Shown here: positions 28,097 to 37,264 of the stretch, piece after piece
Layout: each line of letters opens with the position of its first letter
How positions within the stretch are numbered: the stretch's first letter is position 1
From: Halorussus caseinilyticus
Lineage (GTDB): Archaea > Halobacteriota > Halobacteria > Halobacteriales > Haladaptataceae
DNA: 64,000 nucleotides
Direction: 5' to 3'
NCBI RefSeq assembly: GCF_029338395.1
Contig: NZ_CP119809.1
Coordinates: forward strand, 1,674,001-1,738,000
The notes under the pieces: model-generated
The model's input: only the letters and a program-made list of their open reading frames with translations
Told to the model about the DNA's origin: nothing
The model's database searches: none
Translations under genes and position numbers: made by a program

Positions 28097-28708
28097 CTAC
28101 AGCGTCGTCACTTCGCCGACGCTCTCGGTCACGTCTTCGTCTACCCGCCAGAGGTAGAGGCTGGCGTAACTCCGGTGGGGTGACCACCGCTCGGCGCGTT
28201 CGACCATCTCCGAGCGCGTCAGGTCGGCGTCGAACAGCGCGTCCATCCCCTTCCGGATGCCGAGGTCACCCACCGGGAACACGTCGGGGCGGCCCAGCGA
28301 GAACATGAGTTGCATCTTCGCGGTCCACGTCCCGACGCCCGTGATGGAGGTGAGTTCGGCCAGCACCTCCTCGTCGGGCGCGTCGGCGAAGTACGCCCGC
28401 GAGTAGCCTTCCTCCACGAACGCTTCGGCGACGTTCCGGACGTACTCGGTCTTCTGGCGCGAGAGTCCGGCGTCCCGGAGCGTCTGGGGGTCGGCGGCGA
28501 GGACGCCCTCGGGCGTCACCTCCACGGCGTCGAAGAGTCGCTCGCGGGTCGCCGCCGCCGACGCCATCGACACCTGTTGGCGCAGGATGGAGGTGACGAA
28601 CCGCGAGTAGAAGTTCTCGGCGGGGTCGATGGTGAGCGGGCCGTACTCGGCGACCAGCGGACCGATGTACCGGTCGTCTCGGAGCGCCGCGATTGCGTCG
28701 TCGGTCAT
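28097..28708 (-). CDS. DNA-3-methyladenine glycosylase, AlkA-like (HhH-GPD)
   Basis: A 203-residue DNA repair glycosylase that removes alkylated bases. The helix-hairpin-helix LTSITGVGTWTAKMQL (about 119-134) and the catalytic aspartate D148 (FPVGDLGIRKG) are present. FVTSILRQQVSMASA near residue 38 is the usual substrate-pocket helix. The N-terminal AlkA domain is missing, so it is the short archaeal or Mag1-like form. A longer open frame upstream lacks coding bias. Confidence 0.9.
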   Translation of the reverse strand: MTDDAIAALRDDRYIGPLVAEYGPLTIDPAENFYSRFVTSILRQQVSMASAAATRERLFDAVEVTPEGVLAADPQTLRDAGLSRQKTEYVRNVAEAFVEEGYSRAYFADAPDEEVLAELTSITGVGTWTAKMQLMFSLGRPDVFPVGDLGIRKGMDALFDADLTRSEMVERAERWSPHRSYASLYLWRVDEDVTESVGEVTTL

Positions 28709-29203
28709 TCGGCCGGGCGTAGGGTCCGGAGGTAGATGAGCGTGTGGCTTACGTGAAGAGAGATGCGCGCGGCACCGCGCCCTGCGTCTCGACGCCGGTG
28801 CCCGGCGTCGAGACGCCACAGGTCGGCAGACGCTCGGCCGACCAACCGCCGGTAGCGCGAAAGCGGACCAACTGCCGGAACGCGCTCGGCACGACCAACC
28901 ACGGTGTGGGTGGACGAAAGGGGCCGTCCGCTCGCGCAACGCTTGGTCGTCTCCGCGGGCCACTATTCGACGCGCCGAGCGAAGCGAGGCGCGAGAATAT
29001 CCCGCGGAGCGACCGCGAGCGGGCGGGGGCTTTCGAGGACTTCTTTCTAGCGGTTCCTGCGGTAGCGGTCGTCGTGGCGACTCCGACGGCGCGCGCCACG
29101 GCCGCGACGAGAGGTGACGCTGGACACAACTCCACTATTCTGAAGGTCGTTTATACACACCTAAGACAAACAAAAACATTTCTAAAGGACAACTAAAGAA
29201 ATT
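28709..29203. other. Intergenic region between the AlkA-like and membrane-protein genes
   Basis: Within these 495 bases lie a 14-base-arm perfect inverted repeat (28784-28816) and an AT-rich tail (29140-29203). On the minus strand the tail carries TTTCTTTAG and TTTTTGTTTGTC just past the stop at 29204, a likely terminator. No gene was found. Confidence 0.5.
28784..28816. repeat. 33-base inverted repeat upstream of the AlkA-like gene
   Basis: Arms GCGTCTCGACGCCG (28784-28797) and its exact complement (28803-28816) with a 5-base loop. It lies about 75 bases before the AlkA-like start codon and could be an operator or a hairpin in the 5' leader. Confidence 0.65.
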
Positions 29204-30136: not shown

Positions 30137-31492
30137 TTATTCGTTGGTCTCTTCTTCTTCCTCTTCGGCCTCTTCCTCGGCGTCCACGCGCTTCTGGACG
30201 TTCACCTGATAGTGCTTCAGGATGTCCCGGCCGAGCAGGACCGGGTAGTCCATGTGACCGCGGTCCTCGATGCTCGCCGTGACCGTGTGTCGGTTGCCGC
30301 CGACGCCGACCACCACGTCCACGACCGGCCGCGAGCGACTCGACTTACTGCTCCCGGACTTGACGCGAGCGATGCTCTTGATGGGACCGGCACCGATTTG
30401 GGCGGCGAGTTTGGTGTCGATGCTGGTCCGGGTCGCGCCCGTGTCGGACTTGGCGACCACGGTTTCTGAGCCACTCGTCCCGCTCAGGATGACCTCCTCG
30501 GTGTAGCCGATGACGATAGGTTCGCCCGACCCCGTTTCTTTCGGTCGGGGCTTGCACGCGGGCACCGAGTCGTCCAGCGTGGCGGTCAACTCCTTGACTC
30601 TCTGCTCGTCCACCGTGCCGCCCGCGCGTTCGATGGCGAGTTGGGCGATGTACGGCGCGGCGCTCTTGCCGGTCGCTTTGAACAGGCCCTTGAAGCCAGC
30701 GGTCGGGTTGACTTCGAGGACGTACCACCCGTCGTGACCCTCGATGAGGTCCACGCCTGCACAGTCGAGACCGATGGTGTCGGCCGCGTCTCGGGCGATG
30801 TCGGCCACTTCCCGCGGCAGGTTGTCGGTCGCGTCCTCCACGTCGCCGCCCAACGCGACGTTGGTCCGCCAGTCGTTTTCGGGCGCGTAGCGGTTCATCG
30901 CGCCGACGATGCGGTCGCCGACGACGTACACCCGGAGGTCCCGGTGACGGGTGTCGTCGCGTTCGATGAGTTCCTGCAGGAAGGCCTGACGGTCGCCTAC
31001 CCGCGGGTTGACGAGTTCGTCCGGGCCGACCTTCCACGTCCCGCCGCCGTGGGTCCCGATTGCCGTCTTGTAGACGGCTTCCTCGCCGAACTCTCCCCGG
31101 CCGTCGTTGAGTCGGTCGTTCGACAGCGCCAGCAGTGCGTCGGGAACCGGCAGGCCCTCGTTGGCCATCGCGGTGGCGGCCGAGAACTTGTGGATGGCCG
31201 TCATGACCGAACTCGGGTCGTTGAGGACCGGAAGAACCGAGTCGTAAATCTTGGCGAGACCGAGCGCCTCCGAGGGTTGCTCGGTGTTCGACAGCAACAG
31301 TCGATTCGTCACGATGTCAACGTCGGGTTCGAGGTGGACCTCTCCGTCCGCCACCCGAACCGCCGTGTTCTCCTCCCGAAGCCAGAAGGGTTCGTGACCG
31401 AGGTCGTCGATTGCGTTGAGAATCGCCTTAGTTTCTTTACTGTTGTGGAGACTGAGTACACCGACCCGCACACCTGAACCGTCTGCAGTCAT
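30137..31492 (-). CDS. RimK-type ATP-grasp ligase fused to a RimB-like retropepsin domain
   Basis: A 451-residue fusion. Residues about 95-290 form a RimK-type ATP-grasp ligase (YKTAIGTHGGGTWKV at 141-155, DLIEGHDGWYVLEVNPTAG at 248-265), which normally adds glutamate to a C-terminus or amino acid. Residues about 325-425 form a RimB-like domain (Pfam 'ATP-dependent zinc protease', PF05618, really retropepsin-like) with the aspartate motif D350-T-G and VLLGRDIL. An acidic tail ends the protein. The TATA-like TTTTTAAG at 31520-31527 lies about 27 bases before the ATG. The divergent neighbour is an AstE/aspartoacylase-like hydrolase, so tagging and untagging of a target is a plausible theme (inference). 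Confidence 0.85.
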   Translation of the reverse strand: MTADGSGVRVGVLSLHNSKETKAILNAIDDLGHEPFWLREENTAVRVADGEVHLEPDVDIVTNRLLLSNTEQPSEALGLAKIYDSVLPVLNDPSSVMTAIHKFSAATAMANEGLPVPDALLALSNDRLNDGRGEFGEEAVYKTAIGTHGGGTWKVGPDELVNPRVGDRQAFLQELIERDDTRHRDLRVYVVGDRIVGAMNRYAPENDWRTNVALGGDVEDATDNLPREVADIARDAADTIGLDCAGVDLIEGHDGWYVLEVNPTAGFKGLFKATGKSAAPYIAQLAIERAGGTVDEQRVKELTATLDDSVPACKPRPKETGSGEPIVIGYTEEVILSGTSGSETVVAKSDTGATRTSIDTKLAAQIGAGPIKSIARVKSGSSKSSRSRPVVDVVVGVGGNRHTVTASIEDRGHMDYPVLLGRDILKHYQVNVQKRVDAEEEAEEEEEETNE

Positions 31493-31519
31493 TGGTGGTT
31501 ATCTATTCTACGGCCTCCC

Positions 31520-31527
31520 TTAAAAAG
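31520..31527 (-). promoter_or_regulatory. TATA box of the RimK-RimB fusion gene
   Basis: TTTTTAAG on the minus strand is framed by the inverted repeat CCCTT/AAGGG. It is about 27 bases before the ATG at 31492. Confidence 0.55.
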
Positions 31528-31579
31528 GGAAAACATCGAACAACCCTCCGGTAATTGATACCGCGGCGACTGCCACGCC

Positions 31580-31587
31580 TTTATATA
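31580..31587 (+). promoter_or_regulatory. TATA box of the AstE-like gene (leaderless)
   Basis: TTTATATA is a near-consensus archaeal TATA box whose centre is 26-27 bases before the ATG at 31610. The divergent fusion gene's TATA is about 55 bases away, so both promoters share one short control region. Confidence 0.75.
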
Positions 31588-31609
31588 TGCCGGGGTCCGA
31601 GTGAGTGGT

Positions 31610-32680
31610 ATGACCGGTTCGGACGCAGACCCGGAGGCGTTTACTTACAACGGCGGAATCGTCGAACCGGGCGAGACCCAGAACATCCGATACGGCATCA
31701 GCGAGACGTATCTGGGTGACCCGGTTCGCATCCCCGTCACTATCGTCAACGGGACCGAACCCGGACCGACGGTGTTCCTCTCGGCGGCGGCCCACGGCGA
31801 CGAACTCAACGGCATCGAGGTGGTCCGCGAGGTGGCCCACGAGTGGAACCACGACGACCTCCGCGGAACGCTGGTTTGTCTCCCCGTACTCAACGTCCCC
31901 GGCTTTCTCGCCCAAGAGCGCTACCTCCCCATCTACGACCGGGACCTGAACCGGTCGTTCCCCGGCCGGGAGGGTTCGACCAGCGCCAAGCGGATGGCCT
32001 ACCAGATATTCCGGAACTTCCTCGCGCCCTGCGACGTTGGTCTGGACTTCCACACCTCCACGCGCGGGCGAACAAACATGTTACACGTCCGGGGAGACGT
32101 GAACAACCCCGACGTGGCCCGCCTCGCCAAGGCGTTCGGGTCGAACGTCATCATCTCCTCGGAGGGACCCACGGGGTCGCTCCGCCGGGAGGCCACCGAC
32201 TACGGCATCCCGACCATCACCATCGAGATGGGCGAGGCCCACCGCTTCCAGCGAGAATTCATCGACCGGGGTCTCGAAGGGGTAGAGAGCGTCCTCTCGG
32301 AGTACGGCGTCCACCGCACCGAGGCGGTGAAGTGGCCGGGATGGCGCACGGTAATCGACGACGCCAAGGAGAAGACGTGGATTCGGGCCGACGCGGGCGG
32401 ACTCGTAGACATGCACCACGACCGCGGGTCGCTGGTCTACGAGGGCGACACCATCTGTACCATCACCAACCCATTCAAGACCGACAGCGAACCCGTCGAA
32501 GCGCCGTTCACCGGTCTGCTCGTCGGGGTGCTTGAGAACCCCGTCGTCTACCCCGGCAACCCGTTGTGTCACATGGTCGAACTCTCGGCCAAGACCCGGA
32601 AGGCGCTCAAGCGCGACCGCGCCCGGAGCGAGACCAGAGAGACGCCGACCCCACCGCCCACGACTCCGAACGGCCTGTAG
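31610..32680 (+). CDS. Succinylglutamate desuccinylase / aspartoacylase-family zinc hydrolase
   Basis: A 356-residue zinc-dependent amidohydrolase of the AstE/AspA family (M14-like fold). Zinc ligands are H62 and E65 (AAAHGDELNGIE) and the His in VGLDFHTSTRGRTN; the catalytic Glu is in TITIEMGEAHRF. RDLNRSFPGREG carries the substrate-binding Arg/Asn. The C-terminal beta domain (about 245-330) begins AGGLVDMHHDRG. Such enzymes remove an acyl group or amino acid from an amide. Its place opposite the RimK-RimB gene suggests the substrate could be a glutamylated product (inference). Confidence 0.85.
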   Translation: MTGSDADPEAFTYNGGIVEPGETQNIRYGISETYLGDPVRIPVTIVNGTEPGPTVFLSAAAHGDELNGIEVVREVAHEWNHDDLRGTLVCLPVLNVPGFLAQERYLPIYDRDLNRSFPGREGSTSAKRMAYQIFRNFLAPCDVGLDFHTSTRGRTNMLHVRGDVNNPDVARLAKAFGSNVIISSEGPTGSLRREATDYGIPTITIEMGEAHRFQREFIDRGLEGVESVLSEYGVHRTEAVKWPGWRTVIDDAKEKTWIRADAGGLVDMHHDRGSLVYEGDTICTITNPFKTDSEPVEAPFTGLLVGVLENPVVYPGNPLCHMVELSAKTRKALKRDRARSETRETPTPPPTTPNGL

Positions 32681-32835: not shown

Positions 32836-33654
32836 GTGACGACTAGTTTTGGGGTGGAACTCGTGTGTTCACAGTATCGGCAAACGGCACTACGGGACGT
32901 TGTGGAGCGACGTATCGACGTTCTCGACCGGCTTTTGGACGACGGACGAGACAAGCGCGAACTCGTCGGGAGTCTCGACTGTTCGCGTTCGACGGTCGAT
33001 AGGGCGGTTCGGGAACTGGAGTCGTACGACCTCGTGGAGTACGCCGAGGGGGAGTACCGACCGACGACGTTCGGGCGACTCGCGGTCGAGGAGTACCGAC
33101 GGTTCGAGCGGCGCGTCGAAACGCTGGAGCGACTCAAGCCCGCGCTGGAGTGGCTTCCGGTCGAGGAGTTCGACCTCGACTTCGGAACGCTCACCGACTC
33201 GAAACTGGTGGTCTCGACGCCCGACGACCCCTACGCACCGGCCAACCACCACGCGGACGTGGCGTCGCAGGCCGAGAACTTTCGGGCGCTTCTCCCGGCG
33301 GTGGGCCTGAACCAACTGGAGGCCGGGCGGGAGGCCGCAGTCGAGGGCGACCAGCGCCAGCGCATCGTGGTCGAGCGAGACGTGGCGGAACGCCTCCGAG
33401 AACGACCGCACTACGCCGACCGAATCGCCGAGATGTTGCGGTCCGGGCGGGTCGAGATGTGGGTGTACGACGGGTCGATTCCGTACTTTCTGGGTCTCTA
33501 CGACGAGTTGGTCCACGTCGGCGTCGAGGACGAAGACGGGATGCCCCGCGCGCTCATCGAGACCGACGCCGAGGCGGTGCGCGAGTGGGCCGAGTCGGTG
33601 TACGACGAGTATCGACGGGCCGCCCGGAAGTTCGAGAGCGAGCGACTCGCCTGA
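32836..33654 (+). CDS. Helix-turn-helix transcriptional regulator (haloarchaeal FilR1/DUF1724-like)
   Basis: A 272-residue regulator. The winged HTH is at about residues 30-90 ([20 protein letters not shown] then [17 protein letters not shown]). The C-terminal half (about 110-260) is a sensor-like domain of the kind found in the methanogenesis regulatory protein FilR1 family. The GTG at 32836 follows a TATA-like TACGTATAT at 32816-32824, compatible with a very short leader; an internal start is possible. The target genes are unknown, but the AstE-like gene upstream and sdh genes downstream are candidates. Confidence 0.8.
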
Positions 33655-33763
33655 GCGTCTTTCGGGACGTGGCGTCGAAATCCGAACGTCGGTAGGGAGT
33701 TCGACTCCGGCAGTAGGTAGAAACTTCTATTTGCCCACAGTCCAACCTCCCGAACGGACAAGT

Positions 33764-34156
33764 ATGAGTCAATCGTACAATCGAGGCCTCGTCGAAGACT
33801 TCGGCCGGTGGCGGGAGTTCACGGCCGGGATGTGGGCCTGGATACTCCACAAGTTCACCGGGTGGGTACTCGTCGGCTACCTGTTCACCCACATCGCCGT
33901 GCTGAGTACCGCTATCTCCGGTGCGAACGCGTACACCGACACGATTCAGGGGCTCGAAAGCCTGCTTCTCGTTCGGGTCATGGAGGTCGGACTGCTGGCA
34001 GTCGCCGTCTTCCACATTCTGAACGGCGTCCGCCTGCTGTTCGTGGACCTCGGACTCGGACTGGAGTCGCAGGACAAGAGCTTCTACGCGTCGTTGGTCG
34101 TTACGGGCGTCATCGTGCTGGCAAGTATCCCGACGTTCCTCGAGGGGGCGTTCTAA
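33764..34156 (+). CDS. sdhC: Succinate dehydrogenase cytochrome b556 subunit
   Basis: A 130-residue membrane anchor of complex II. Three transmembrane helices are visible. Candidate heme-ligand histidines lie in [21 protein letters not shown] and [16 protein letters not shown]. The ATG at 33764 is chosen because it gives the usual short N-terminus. First gene of a tight sdhCDBA operon; the next start is 2 bases past this stop. Confidence 0.93.
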
Positions 34157-34157
34157 G

Positions 34158-34523
34158 ATGGCCGAGCGCTACTCCTCGTTCCAGAGCGGAAGCCTTTCGT
34201 GGCTTCTCCAGCGTGTCACGGCGGCGTTTCTCGTCGTGGTGCTGGCGTTCCACTTCTTCCTGCTCCACTTCGTGAACCACGCCTCCGAGGTGACGTTCGC
34301 CGGGACCACTGCCCGCATGGAGCAGTGGGGCTATCTCGCCACCATGGTTCTGTTCCTCCTGACCGCGACGTTCCACGGCGTCAACGGCGTCTACGCCGCG
34401 CTACTGAATCAGGGACTGACGGGAACGAAGAAGACCGCCGTGAAAGGTGTCCTCGCTATCGCCGGTCTCGCACTGGCGGCACAGGGCGTCTACCTCGCAC
34501 TCGTCATGTCCGGAGTGATGTAA
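34158..34523 (+). CDS. sdhD: Succinate dehydrogenase membrane anchor subunit
   Basis: A 121-residue three-helix anchor. SWLLQRVTAAFLVVVLAFHF then FLLHF carries the conserved Arg and His pair, and LTATFHGVNGVYAALL has the second His. It pairs with SdhC to hold heme b and the quinone site. The following gene starts 1 base after this stop. Confidence 0.92.
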   Translation: MAERYSSFQSGSLSWLLQRVTAAFLVVVLAFHFFLLHFVNHASEVTFAGTTARMEQWGYLATMVLFLLTATFHGVNGVYAALLNQGLTGTKKTAVKGVLAIAGLALAAQGVYLALVMSGVM

Positions 34524-34524
34524 C

Positions 34525-35421
34525 ATGAGTACACAAGTACCAGAAGAGCAAGACCAAGAGCAACCCGAGAGCGTAGAACAAGAGGCCGAGACCGCTGTCG
34601 AAGAGGAACCGGCGTCCCACGGCGACCGGCGGCGTGCCGAACGCGACGCCAAGCGCCAGCAGTCGGTGTCGGGCGCGCCCGCCGAAATCGAGGGCGACAC
34701 CTTCCAGTTGAAGGTGTTCCGCTACGACCCCGAAGTCGAGGGGAAGATGGAACCGCGCTTCGACGACTTCGCCATTCCCCGAGAGAAGGGGATGACGGTC
34801 CTCGACGCTCTCATCTACGCCCGCGACCGCTACGACACCACGCTGACGTTCCGCCACTCGTGCCGACAGGCCGTGTGCGGTTCCGACGCCCTGTTCATCA
34901 ACGGCCGACAGCGACTCGGCTGTCAGACCCAGATTTCGGACCTCGAAGGTCCCGTCCGGGTCGAACCGTTACCTCATCAGGACGTGGTGAAAGACCTCGT
35001 GGTGGACATGGAACACTTCTACGACCAGATGCACGCGGTCGAGCCGTTCTTCCAACCCGAAGAGGAGTCGGACGGCGACTTAGAAGAGTACCGACAGACC
35101 CGCGAGAACCGCGAGAAAATCAAGATGTCCACGCGGTGCATCTGGTGCGGTGCCTGTATGTCCTCGTGTAACGTCGCGGCCGGGGACAACCAGTACCTCG
35201 GCCCGGCGGCCATCAACAAGGCCTACCGGTTCGCCATGGACAAGCGCGAGGGCGAGAACATGAAGGAACACCGCCTGAACGTCATGGACCAAGAACACGG
35301 CGTCTGGCGGTGCCAGACCCAGTTCTCGTGTACGAACGTCTGTCCGAAGGACATCCCGCTGACCGAACACATTCAGGAACTCAAGCGCGAAGCGGTCAAG
35401 CAAAACCTGAAATTCTGGTAA
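34525..35421 (+). CDS. sdhB: Succinate dehydrogenase iron-sulfur subunit
   Basis: A 298-residue electron-transfer subunit. An acidic extension of about 50 residues comes first. The 2Fe-2S ferredoxin domain has CRQAVCGSDALFINGRQRLG and the cluster Cys of CQTQ. The C-terminal domain has CIWCGACMSSC and CQTQFSCTNVCPKD for the 4Fe-4S and 3Fe-4S clusters. The SdhB start is 1 base after the sdhD stop. Confidence 0.95.
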   Translation: MSTQVPEEQDQEQPESVEQEAETAVEEEPASHGDRRRAERDAKRQQSVSGAPAEIEGDTFQLKVFRYDPEVEGKMEPRFDDFAIPREKGMTVLDALIYARDRYDTTLTFRHSCRQAVCGSDALFINGRQRLGCQTQISDLEGPVRVEPLPHQDVVKDLVVDMEHFYDQMHAVEPFFQPEEESDGDLEEYRQTRENREKIKMSTRCIWCGACMSSCNVAAGDNQYLGPAAINKAYRFAMDKREGENMKEHRLNVMDQEHGVWRCQTQFSCTNVCPKDIPLTEHIQELKREAVKQNLKFW

Positions 35422-35425
35422 AACT

Positions 35426-37264
35426 ATGCACGAACACGACGTTTTGGTAATCGGCGGCGGCGGTGCCGGACTCCGTGCGGCTATCGCGGCCCACGAGGAG
35501 GGCGCGGACGTAGCCATCGTCACGAAACTCCATCCGGTTCGGAGTCACACCGGCGCGGCCGAAGGCGGTATCAACGCGGCGCTCCGCGAGGGAGACGACT
35601 GGGAACTCCACGCCTACGACACGATGAAGGGGTCGGACTACCTCGGTGACGCCCCCGCAATCGAGACCCTCGCACAGGACAGTCCCGAAGAGACCATCCA
35701 ACTCGAAAACTGGGGGATGCCGTTCTCCCGCGAGGACGACGGCCGAGTCTCCCAGCGACCGTTCGGCGGACTATCCTTCGCCCGGACGACCTACGCCGGG
35801 GCCGAGACCGGCCACCACATGCTCCACACGATGTACGAGCAGGTGGTCAAGCGAGGGATTCAGGTGTACGACGAGTGGTACGTCTCGAACCTCGCGGTCA
35901 CCGACCACGACGACCCCGCCGACCGCGAGTGTCACGGCGTCGTCGCCTACGACATCAAGACCGGTGCGGTCGAGGGATTCAAGGCCCGCAACGGGGTCAT
36001 CCTCGCTACGGGTGGCACCGGGCAGGTGTACGACCACACGACCAACGCGGTGGCTAACACCGGCGACGGTGCGGCGATGGCCTACCGTGCGGGCGTCCCG
36101 CTCGAAGACATGGAGTTCGTCCAGTTCCACCCGACCACGCTCCCCTCGACGGGGGTCCTCATCTCCGAGGGCGTCCGGGGTGAGGGCGGCATCCTCTACA
36201 ACGCCGAGGGCGAACGGTTCATGTTCGAGTACGGATACGCCAACAACGCCGGGGAACTGGCCTCCCGCGACGTGGTGTCGCGCGCCGAACTCACGGAGGT
36301 CAACGAGGGGCGGGGCGTCAACGACGAGTACGTCTACCTCGACATGCGTCACCTCGGCGAGGAGCGCATCACCGACCGACTGGAGAACATCCTCCACCTC
36401 GCGCGGGACTTCGAGGGTGTGGACGGTCTCGAAGAACCGATGCCGGTCAAGCCCGGCCAGCACTACGAGATGGGCGGCATCGAGACCGACGAGAACGGCG
36501 AGACCCTCATCGACGGACTCTACGCCGCGGGCGAGTGCGCCTGCGTCTCGGTCCACGGGTCGAACCGACTCGGCGGCAACGCCCTGCCGGAACTCATCGT
36601 CTTCGGCGCTCGCGCGGGCCGACACGCCGCGGGCGCGGACCTCGGCGAGGCAGAGATTACGAAGGGCAAGACGCCCGAAATCGAGCAGGAGGACGGTCTC
36701 GACACGCCCGTCGAACCCGGCGCGGTCGGCGCGAGCGACGAGGACGCCGTCGCCGACGGCGGGGCCGCAGTCGTCGAACCCGACGAGACGGTCCGGACTG
36801 CGGTCGAACGCGAGCGCACCCGCATCGAGGAACTGATGGAGAAAGACGACGGCATCCAGCACGCCGAACTCCGCGAGGACCTCCAGAAGTCGATGACGGC
36901 GAACGTCAACGTCTTCCGGAACGAGGAGGGCCTGAAGCAGGCCCTCGAAGACATCCGGGAGGTCCGCGAGGCGTATCAGGACGTGTACGTCAACGACCCG
37001 TCGCGCACGTTCAACACCGACCTCATCCACACTATCGAAACGCGGAACCTCATCGACCTCGCGGAAGCCATCACGCTCGGTGCGTTGGCCCGCGACGAGT
37101 TCCGCGGTGCCCACTGGCGACAAGCCCACCAAGAGCGCAAGGACGACGAGTGGCTCAAGCACACGATGCTCTCGTGGAACGACGGCAGTCCGGAACTCTG
37201 GTACAAGCCGGTCATCCTCGAAGGCGAAGCGAAGACCTACGAACCGAAAGAGCGTAGCTACTGA
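35426..37264 (+). CDS. sdhA: Succinate dehydrogenase flavoprotein subunit
   Basis: A 612-residue catalytic subunit that oxidises succinate to fumarate. The FAD dinucleotide fold is VIGGGGAGLRAAIAA (8-22). The covalent-flavin histidine is H41 (RSHTGAAEGGIN). The substrate motif is QFHPTTLPSTGVLISEGVRGEGG, and GSNRLGGNALPELIVFG is conserved near residue 374. A glutamate/aspartate-rich insertion of about 40 residues lies near 420-460, a haloarchaeal addition to the C-terminal domain. Last gene of the operon, 5 bases after sdhB. Confidence 0.96.
   Translation: MHEHDVLVIGGGGAGLRAAIAAHEEGADVAIVTKLHPVRSHTGAAEGGINAALREGDDWELHAYDTMKGSDYLGDAPAIETLAQDSPEETIQLENWGMPFSREDDGRVSQRPFGGLSFARTTYAGAETGHHMLHTMYEQVVKRGIQVYDEWYVSNLAVTDHDDPADRECHGVVAYDIKTGAVEGFKARNGVILATGGTGQVYDHTTNAVANTGDGAAMAYRAGVPLEDMEFVQFHPTTLPSTGVLISEGVRGEGGILYNAEGERFMFEYGYANNAGELASRDVVSRAELTEVNEGRGVNDEYVYLDMRHLGEERITDRLENILHLARDFEGVDGLEEPMPVKPGQHYEMGGIETDENGETLIDGLYAAGECACVSVHGSNRLGGNALPELIVFGARAGRHAAGADLGEAEITKGKTPEIEQEDGLDTPVEPGAVGASDEDAVADGGAAVVEPDETVRTAVERERTRIEELMEKDDGIQHAELREDLQKSMTANVNVFRNEEGLKQALEDIREVREAYQDVYVNDPSRTFNTDLIHTIETRNLIDLAEAITLGALARDEFRGAHWRQAHQERKDDEWLKHTMLSWNDGSPELWYKPVILEGEAKTYEPKERSY

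Follow-up and report, generated by a model that had tools for sequence, protein, structure and literature searches.

A RimK-like ligase–retropepsin fusion and its facing zinc hydrolase as a candidate poly-alpha-glutamylation unit of haloarchaea

What would a glutamate ligase joined to a protease of the kind that processes glutamate chains be doing in a cell that lacks the only protein on which such chains are known? In bacteria, RimK adds glutamates to the C-terminal glutamate of ribosomal protein S6, and RimB trims the resulting chain to about four residues (PMC7343187). C-terminal poly-alpha-glutamylation is so far known on S6 only, and where S6 is absent or does not end in glutamate, RimK may have another target (PMC11957791). 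In Halorussus caseinilyticus, a gene that joins a RimK-type ATP-grasp domain to a retropepsin-like domain (P0001) faces a gene for a zinc hydrolase (P0002) within the 64,000-nucleotide stretch of DNA analysed here, which we call the window (Table 1). The first-pass annotation had considered S6 an unlikely target of this locus on the grounds that archaea do not have it, and the genomes agree: the S6 family (PF01250) was found in 0 of 39 Halobacteria and is absent as well from the archaeal control genomes, and S6 is therefore rejected as the target of the module. From the comparisons of sequence and gene order presented below, we lean, on balance, towards reading the fusion and the facing hydrolase as a reversible poly-alpha-glutamylation unit, with the fusion's own tail as the most likely acceptor.

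Table 1. Features of the fusion and hydrolase locus, in window positions
Feature	Position	Strand	Basis
Ligase-retropepsin fusion CDS P0001, 451 aa	30137..31492	-	ORF; Pfam matches; orthologues in 132/145 Halobacteria genomes
RimK-type ATP-grasp domain, residues 102-282	30647..31189	-	PF08443, E 7.6e-22
Retropepsin-like domain, about residues 329-432	30197..30508	-	PF05618, PF13650, PDB 9g59; limits judged from alignment
Catalytic aspartate motif D350-T351-G352	30437..30445	-	Conserved in fusions; aligns with RimB DTG/DSG
C-terminal acidic tail, residues 433-451, QKRVDAEEEAEEEEEETNE; candidate acceptor	30140..30196	-	Terminal-Glu counts; permutation test
AstE/AspA-family zinc hydrolase CDS P0002, 356 aa	31610..32680	+	PF24827, E 5.8e-49
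Divergent intergenic region, 117 bp	31493..31609	.	Sequence

The architecture of the fusion is straightforward: a pre-ATP-grasp part (residues 1-101) precedes the ATP-grasp domain, the retropepsin-like domain and a short acidic tail. That one protein of 451 residues carries both an ATP-grasp and a retropepsin domain, the latter with a D-T-G motif, had been noticed from the sequence at first pass, and the open reading frame, the Pfam matches and the motif at D350-T351-G352 all bear this out. The gene is no artefact of open reading frame calling, because near full-length matches occur in 132 of 145 Halobacteria genomes. Haloferax volcanii, too, has matches to PF05618 and PF08443. RimB-RimK hybrids are already known in bacteria, with the opposite domain order; in P0001 Pfam places both domains in one chain, and the RimB-type domain follows the RimK-type domain instead of standing N-terminal to it. 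By its domain matches, the haloarchaeal protein is a relative of the bacterial RimBK hybrid that has its domains in reverse order, and hence a new form of such fusions. Our literature search returned no paper on the haloarchaeal fusion, and an earlier mention of the gene association is conceivable; the 2009 amidoligase survey of Iyer and colleagues reportedly discusses RimK neighbourhoods. Structure predictions of low confidence, with a mean pLDDT of 43.7 for the fusion (12 sequences) and 47.6 for the hydrolase (10 sequences), were set aside.

The two genes are rarely found apart. Among the 145 Halobacteria genomes, 132 have both, 12 have neither, and one has the hydrolase alone, so that an orthologue of the hydrolase is present in 133, a count that leaves out weaker paralogue matches near E 1e-45. 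The pair is divergent within 5 kb in 122 of the 132 genomes with both (87 within 300 bp, with a median gap of 142, and 35 more); two more genomes have them in a different orientation, again within 5 kb, and in eight they are unlinked. The linkage proposed at first pass, which was to be checked by surveying haloarchaeal neighbourhoods, is thus conserved in relatives. The single genome with the hydrolase alone (G110) has next to it a stub of 65 residues that matches the N-terminal part of the fusion (residues 7-71; locus L060, 5819-6013), which by its sequence is a decayed fusion gene beside an intact hydrolase. Both genes are missing together from members of genera g5, g9, g23 and g30, and since other members of the same genera keep both, the joint loss happened several times; nevertheless, the bare counts overstate the weight of these joint absences, because a single deletion can remove adjacent genes. 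Extra copies, too, are side-by-side pairs (on contigs C10 and C13 of genome G063 and on C2 of G023).

In genomes of family f4, the fusion and the hydrolase are separated by genes for a polysaccharide flippase and a GNAT-DUF5816 protein (locus L061, 7822-10358). Downstream of the hydrolase in the window lie sdhCDBA-type succinate dehydrogenase genes (33731-37264), and sdh genes adjoin the pair in 18 of 26 other loci; that the two genes are linked only by a chance position beside sdhCDBA is rejected, the pair occurring also without sdh and in moved copies. Between the hydrolase and sdh is a transcription regulator of the FilR1/HVO_A0261 type (32836-33654), with no counterpart in the compared loci, and near the fusion is a DNA-3-methyladenine glycosylase-like gene (28097-28963) that is conserved in 17 compared loci.

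As the first-pass annotation had it, the partner across the 117-base divergent region belongs to the AstE family, and its catalytic domain exceeds the gathering score of PF24827 (AstE_AspA_cat) (166.7 bits, cut-off 25). The zinc ligands of the HxxE...H type, H62, E65 and H148, and E206 are invariant in 10 orthologues. The equivalog cut-offs for AstE (23.2 against 305.65) and DoeB (100.5 against 402.7) are both missed, and judged by these scores P0002 is a member of the AstE/AspA family in the broad sense, not AstE or DoeB proper. A TATA-like box, TTTATATATG at 31580-31589, was picked out by eye; it precedes the ATG of the hydrolase by about 21-30 bp. A GTG at 31601 is an alternative start, and the intergenic region has no match to a bacterial-type promoter. 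Haloarchaeal plasmids carry relatives of P0002 with about 50-57% identity and without a fusion (L191, L192 and L193), near genes for cation:proton antiporters, copper ATPases or K+ transport.

The family of this hydrolase recurs beside separate ligase and protease genes. Within the phylum but outside Halobacteria, PF05618 is found on short stand-alone proteins, and at six Methanosarcinaceae loci one tight operon runs from the retropepsin gene through rimK to astE, the neighbours overlapping by 4 nt at one junction and lying 3 nt apart at the other; the RimK there exceeds its equivalog cut-off (479.5 bits against 331). The same rimB, rimK, astE set, or trio, is present in Salinivibrio, Phaeobacter and Acaryochloris replicons and, in the order rimK-astE-rimB, in Vibrio nigripulchritudo, so that the earlier remark that AstE-like genes occur near bacterial rimB and rimK holds in the replicons examined. 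In a maximum-likelihood tree, P0002 and its orthologues group with the trio hydrolases, apart from other haloarchaeal AstE paralogues (92/92), and the haloarchaeal pair accordingly has the linked retropepsin, RimK-type ligase and trio-clade hydrolase that define the set. Methanosarcina also has a second retropepsin-rimK pair, without the hydrolase (L118, 6292-7703).

What the ligase half acts on is harder to read from its family. It meets the gathering score of PF08443, the RimK-like ATP-grasp superfamily (78.3 bits, cut-off 21), and falls far below every equivalog cut-off that we compared: MptN (119.1 against 350), LysX (107.3 against 275.6), RimK (65.9 against 331) and CofF (51.4 against 300). 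The label "RimK ligase" given at first pass does not hold in its strict sense; by these profile scores P0001 is a member of the broad RimK-like and retropepsin families and not a curated-equivalog RimK, RimB, LysX or MptN. In a tree of RimK domains, those of the fusions form one clade (100/99) outside RimK, which joins LysX weakly and on long branches, and because long branches meet there the tree gives no clear verdict on a descent of the haloarchaeal ligase from the RimK of the trios. The fusion is not the LysX of this genome, which has a separate LysX over the cut-off. A third RimK-family ATP-grasp protein of the genome, with 288 aa (L004, 1252-2118), is over no equivalog cut-off and is widespread in Halobacteria.

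The residues of the ligase core give a mixed picture. R64, R187, R201, R209, D248, E260 and N262 are invariant in 124 fusions and align with R64, R189, R203, R211, D248, E260 and N262 of RimK, while S14 (kept in 121 of 124) and S68 (119 of 124) align with S7 and S68 in RimK numbering. In Pseudomonas RimK, S7, R64, S68, R189 and N262 contact bound poly-Glu or ATP (PMC10092738), and all five align with conserved residues of the fusions. In the same alignment, the RimK Glu-contact residues R8 and S14 are not conserved in the fusions, nor are H215 and R216.

The profile scores leave room for a different chemistry, in which the ligase half glutamylates a small molecule (F420, a pterin or a furan) or makes an oligo-Glu osmolyte or store, with both hydrolases trimming or recycling the product. 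The domain does score nearer to MptN and LysX than to RimK, RimK homologues of methanogens and methylotrophs act on coenzymes (PMC11957791, PMC8141765), E. coli RimK produces poly-alpha-Glu in free form, a synthesis that RimB stimulates in Pseudomonas (PMC11957791), and enzymes of the AstE/DoeB family have small N-acyl amino acids as their substrates. However, each small-molecule equivalog cut-off is missed by a wide margin, LysX is supplied separately, and neither a fused poly-Glu endoprotease nor a conserved C-terminal glutamate would be expected of an enzyme that edits a coenzyme by one residue. We consider a small-molecule substrate unlikely.

The protease half is recognisable as a retropepsin in the broad sense. 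PF05618 (Zn_protease/RimB-type) matches residues 371-435 (E 1.6e-9, 38.2 bits against a cut-off of 27), a match that spans the C-terminal half of the model only; Asp_protease_2 (PF13650) passes its cut-off on residues 341-423, PDB 9g59 matches the domain with E 7.8e-5, and the RimB equivalog model NF052261 is not among the matches at E<=0.1. D350-T351-G352 aligns with the DTG or DSG of RimB proteins, the catalytic aspartate being kept in 122 of 124 fusions, the threonine in 118 (T or S in 121) and the glycine in 120; about 25 residues that RimB has after the DTG strand are missing from the fusion domain. In the poly-Glu-specific protease RloA, the contacts to poly-Glu are made by K46, R114 and R137 (PMC12239564). 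Judged by spacing (2 residues to the catalytic aspartate and 23 residues to each other), these would correspond to K348, R388 and R411 of the fusion, which are kept in 119, 119 and 122 of 124 fusions, respectively. Five divergent paralogues (L181-L185) have lost the DTG motif (EPV, DPT, NPA, DTA) or the basic residues and have an intact ligase core; no hydrolase of the trio type was found at their loci.

The end of the fusion had gone unremarked at first pass. The retropepsin domain is followed by a tail that is 2-24 residues long (median 18) and poorly conserved in sequence except at the very end, which is Glu in 117 of 125 distinct copies and Glu-Glu in 94 of them; the tail of P0001 itself ends EEEEEETNE, that is, with Glu and not Glu-Glu. 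Haloarchaeal proteins are acidic, and the terminal glutamate might reflect this acidity only, the pair being linked for another reason. Indeed, 50 of 367 acidic haloarchaeal open reading frames from the same DNA (14%) end in Glu and 5 (1.4%) in Glu-Glu, in a comparison that is limited by its set having been picked by composition rather than annotation. Yet 14% is far from the 94% of the fusions, and of the 80 hydrolases from these loci, 7 have Glu as the last residue and one has Glu-Glu. The excess also holds against each tail's own composition, in a permutation test that is independent of the comparison set: among 41 representatives chosen at 80% identity, 38 end in E against 11.8 expected and 31 in EE against 3.4 expected when residues are shuffled within the tail, values that were reached in 0 of 10,000 permutations. 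Among 42 representatives below 80% identity, E occupies position -1 in 90% and position -2 in 74%, and no position from -3 to -12 has it in more than 51%. Nor is the tail an artefact of a codon run, a candidate that we rejected, as 61 of the 65 fusions that contain no EEEE run have a terminal E nonetheless; the very short tails of paralogues likewise keep the EE end (SRTVEE, TRASEE, SRRAGEE). Acidity as the whole explanation thus seems very improbable to us.

Since its C-terminus is so consistently Glu or Glu-Glu, the fusion is itself a candidate target, and from these counts its tail looks like a built-in acceptor. The divergent paralogues are instructive here: three of the five lack the Glu end, against 5 of 119 other fusions, a contrast that is only indicative because the paralogues are related. 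L184 and L185 keep the ligase core and do not end in Glu, which speaks against the tail as acceptor. L182 and L183 keep the -EE end with dead protease motifs, and this ties the tail to the ligase rather than to the protease. The tail could instead be a pseudosubstrate, which mimics the true substrate and restrains the enzyme while the unit glutamylates a separate, Glu-ended haloarchaeal protein, a target of the sort proposed at first pass. A mimic would need the terminal glutamate just as much, bacterial S6 is modified in trans by RimK (PMC7343187), and the trio proteins of bacteria and methanogens have no such tail and therefore must act in trans. Against this, no candidate target came up in comparisons that were aimed at the fusion and the hydrolase, and a tail that varies freely except at its end is more easily read as an acceptor than as a docking element. 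A separate target is, in our estimate, improbable.

Under the favoured reading, that of a reversible unit acting on the tail of the fusion, the ATP-grasp half would activate a C-terminal carboxylate with ATP and add L-glutamate to it, the retropepsin half would pair with a second subunit and cut back the chains once they are long enough, and the AstE-type zinc hydrolase would strip the remaining glutamates singly from the chain end. This last role, that of an exo-deglutamylase, is suggested by the resemblance of the peptidyl-Glu bond to the acyl-Glu bond that AstE cleaves. The glutamates would be added to the tail of the fusion itself, either in cis or from one subunit to another; with S6 missing from archaea and Glu or Glu-Glu at the end of nearly every fusion, this tail is the most likely acceptor. 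We infer these catalytic steps, as well as the identity of the substrate, the oligomeric state and the self-modification, and by analogy the module would most likely work like RimK and RimB with an added exo-hydrolase. Several observations weigh against this reading: the RimK residues that the fusions do not keep, the low RimK score of the ligase domain and its place outside RimK in the tree, the stretch of about 25 residues missing from the retropepsin domain, and, in the characterised bacterial hybrid, protease activity without S6 glutamylation (PMC11957791).

It is conceivable, though we regard it as possible rather than probable, that self-modification is the main function, one polypeptide being writer, eraser and substrate at once. 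The fusion would then grow poly-alpha-glutamate on its own C-terminal glutamate, much as glycogenin primes glycogen; the chain would be cut by the fusion's own retropepsin domain and reset by the facing hydrolase. For another ATP-grasp enzyme, CDC123, automodification has already been suggested (PMC4431377). In Pseudomonas, the enzyme that takes the final four glutamates off S6 was reported as unknown (PMC7343187), which makes the conserved partner hydrolase a candidate enzyme of this type. If self-modification is true, archaea would have a C-terminal protein glutamylation system that is independent of S6, and the near-universal, Glu-ended ligase-protease of haloarchaea would offer a second case of C-terminal poly-alpha-glutamylation.

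Several known systems share parts of this design. On tubulin, the ATP-grasp TTLL ligases are opposed by the CCP deglutamylases, erasers of glutamate chains of the zinc carboxypeptidase type; this is an analogy only, tubulin being glutamylated on side chains and in eukaryotes. LysX and ArgX are RimK-type ligases that act on the C-terminal glutamate of a carrier protein, LysW, which, unlike the tail proposed here, is a separate molecule; the fusion misses the LysX cut-off, and the genome has its own LysX. Pseudomonas RimK and RimB (with RimA) likewise combine a glutamate ligase with a retropepsin and share the conserved catalytic core residues, but they are encoded by separate genes, their target is S6 (RpsF), and the published descriptions of their operon cited here include no AstE-like gene. 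RloABC of Pseudomonas aeruginosa also places a poly-Glu-specific retropepsin beside an ATP-grasp gene, but its protease is secreted, and it has an inactive membrane transglutaminase and no hydrolase of the AstE type (PMC12239564). In the RimBK hybrid of Desulfotalea psychrophila (DP2392), poly-Glu protease activity was shown, and no S6 glutamylation (PMC11957791). This protein and its relatives resemble the fusion in having a retropepsin and a RimK-type ligase in one chain, whereas the haloarchaeal ligase lies outside the RimK equivalog and the order of the domains is reversed; no Glu-ended tail is reported for the hybrids, and Halobacteria have no S6. In the rimB-rimK-astE sets of Methanosarcinaceae, Vibrionaceae, Phaeobacter and Acaryochloris, the same three families adjoin and the hydrolases group with P0002, although there the genes are three and separate, the ligase is RimK proper, and the proteins have no tail that ends in glutamate.
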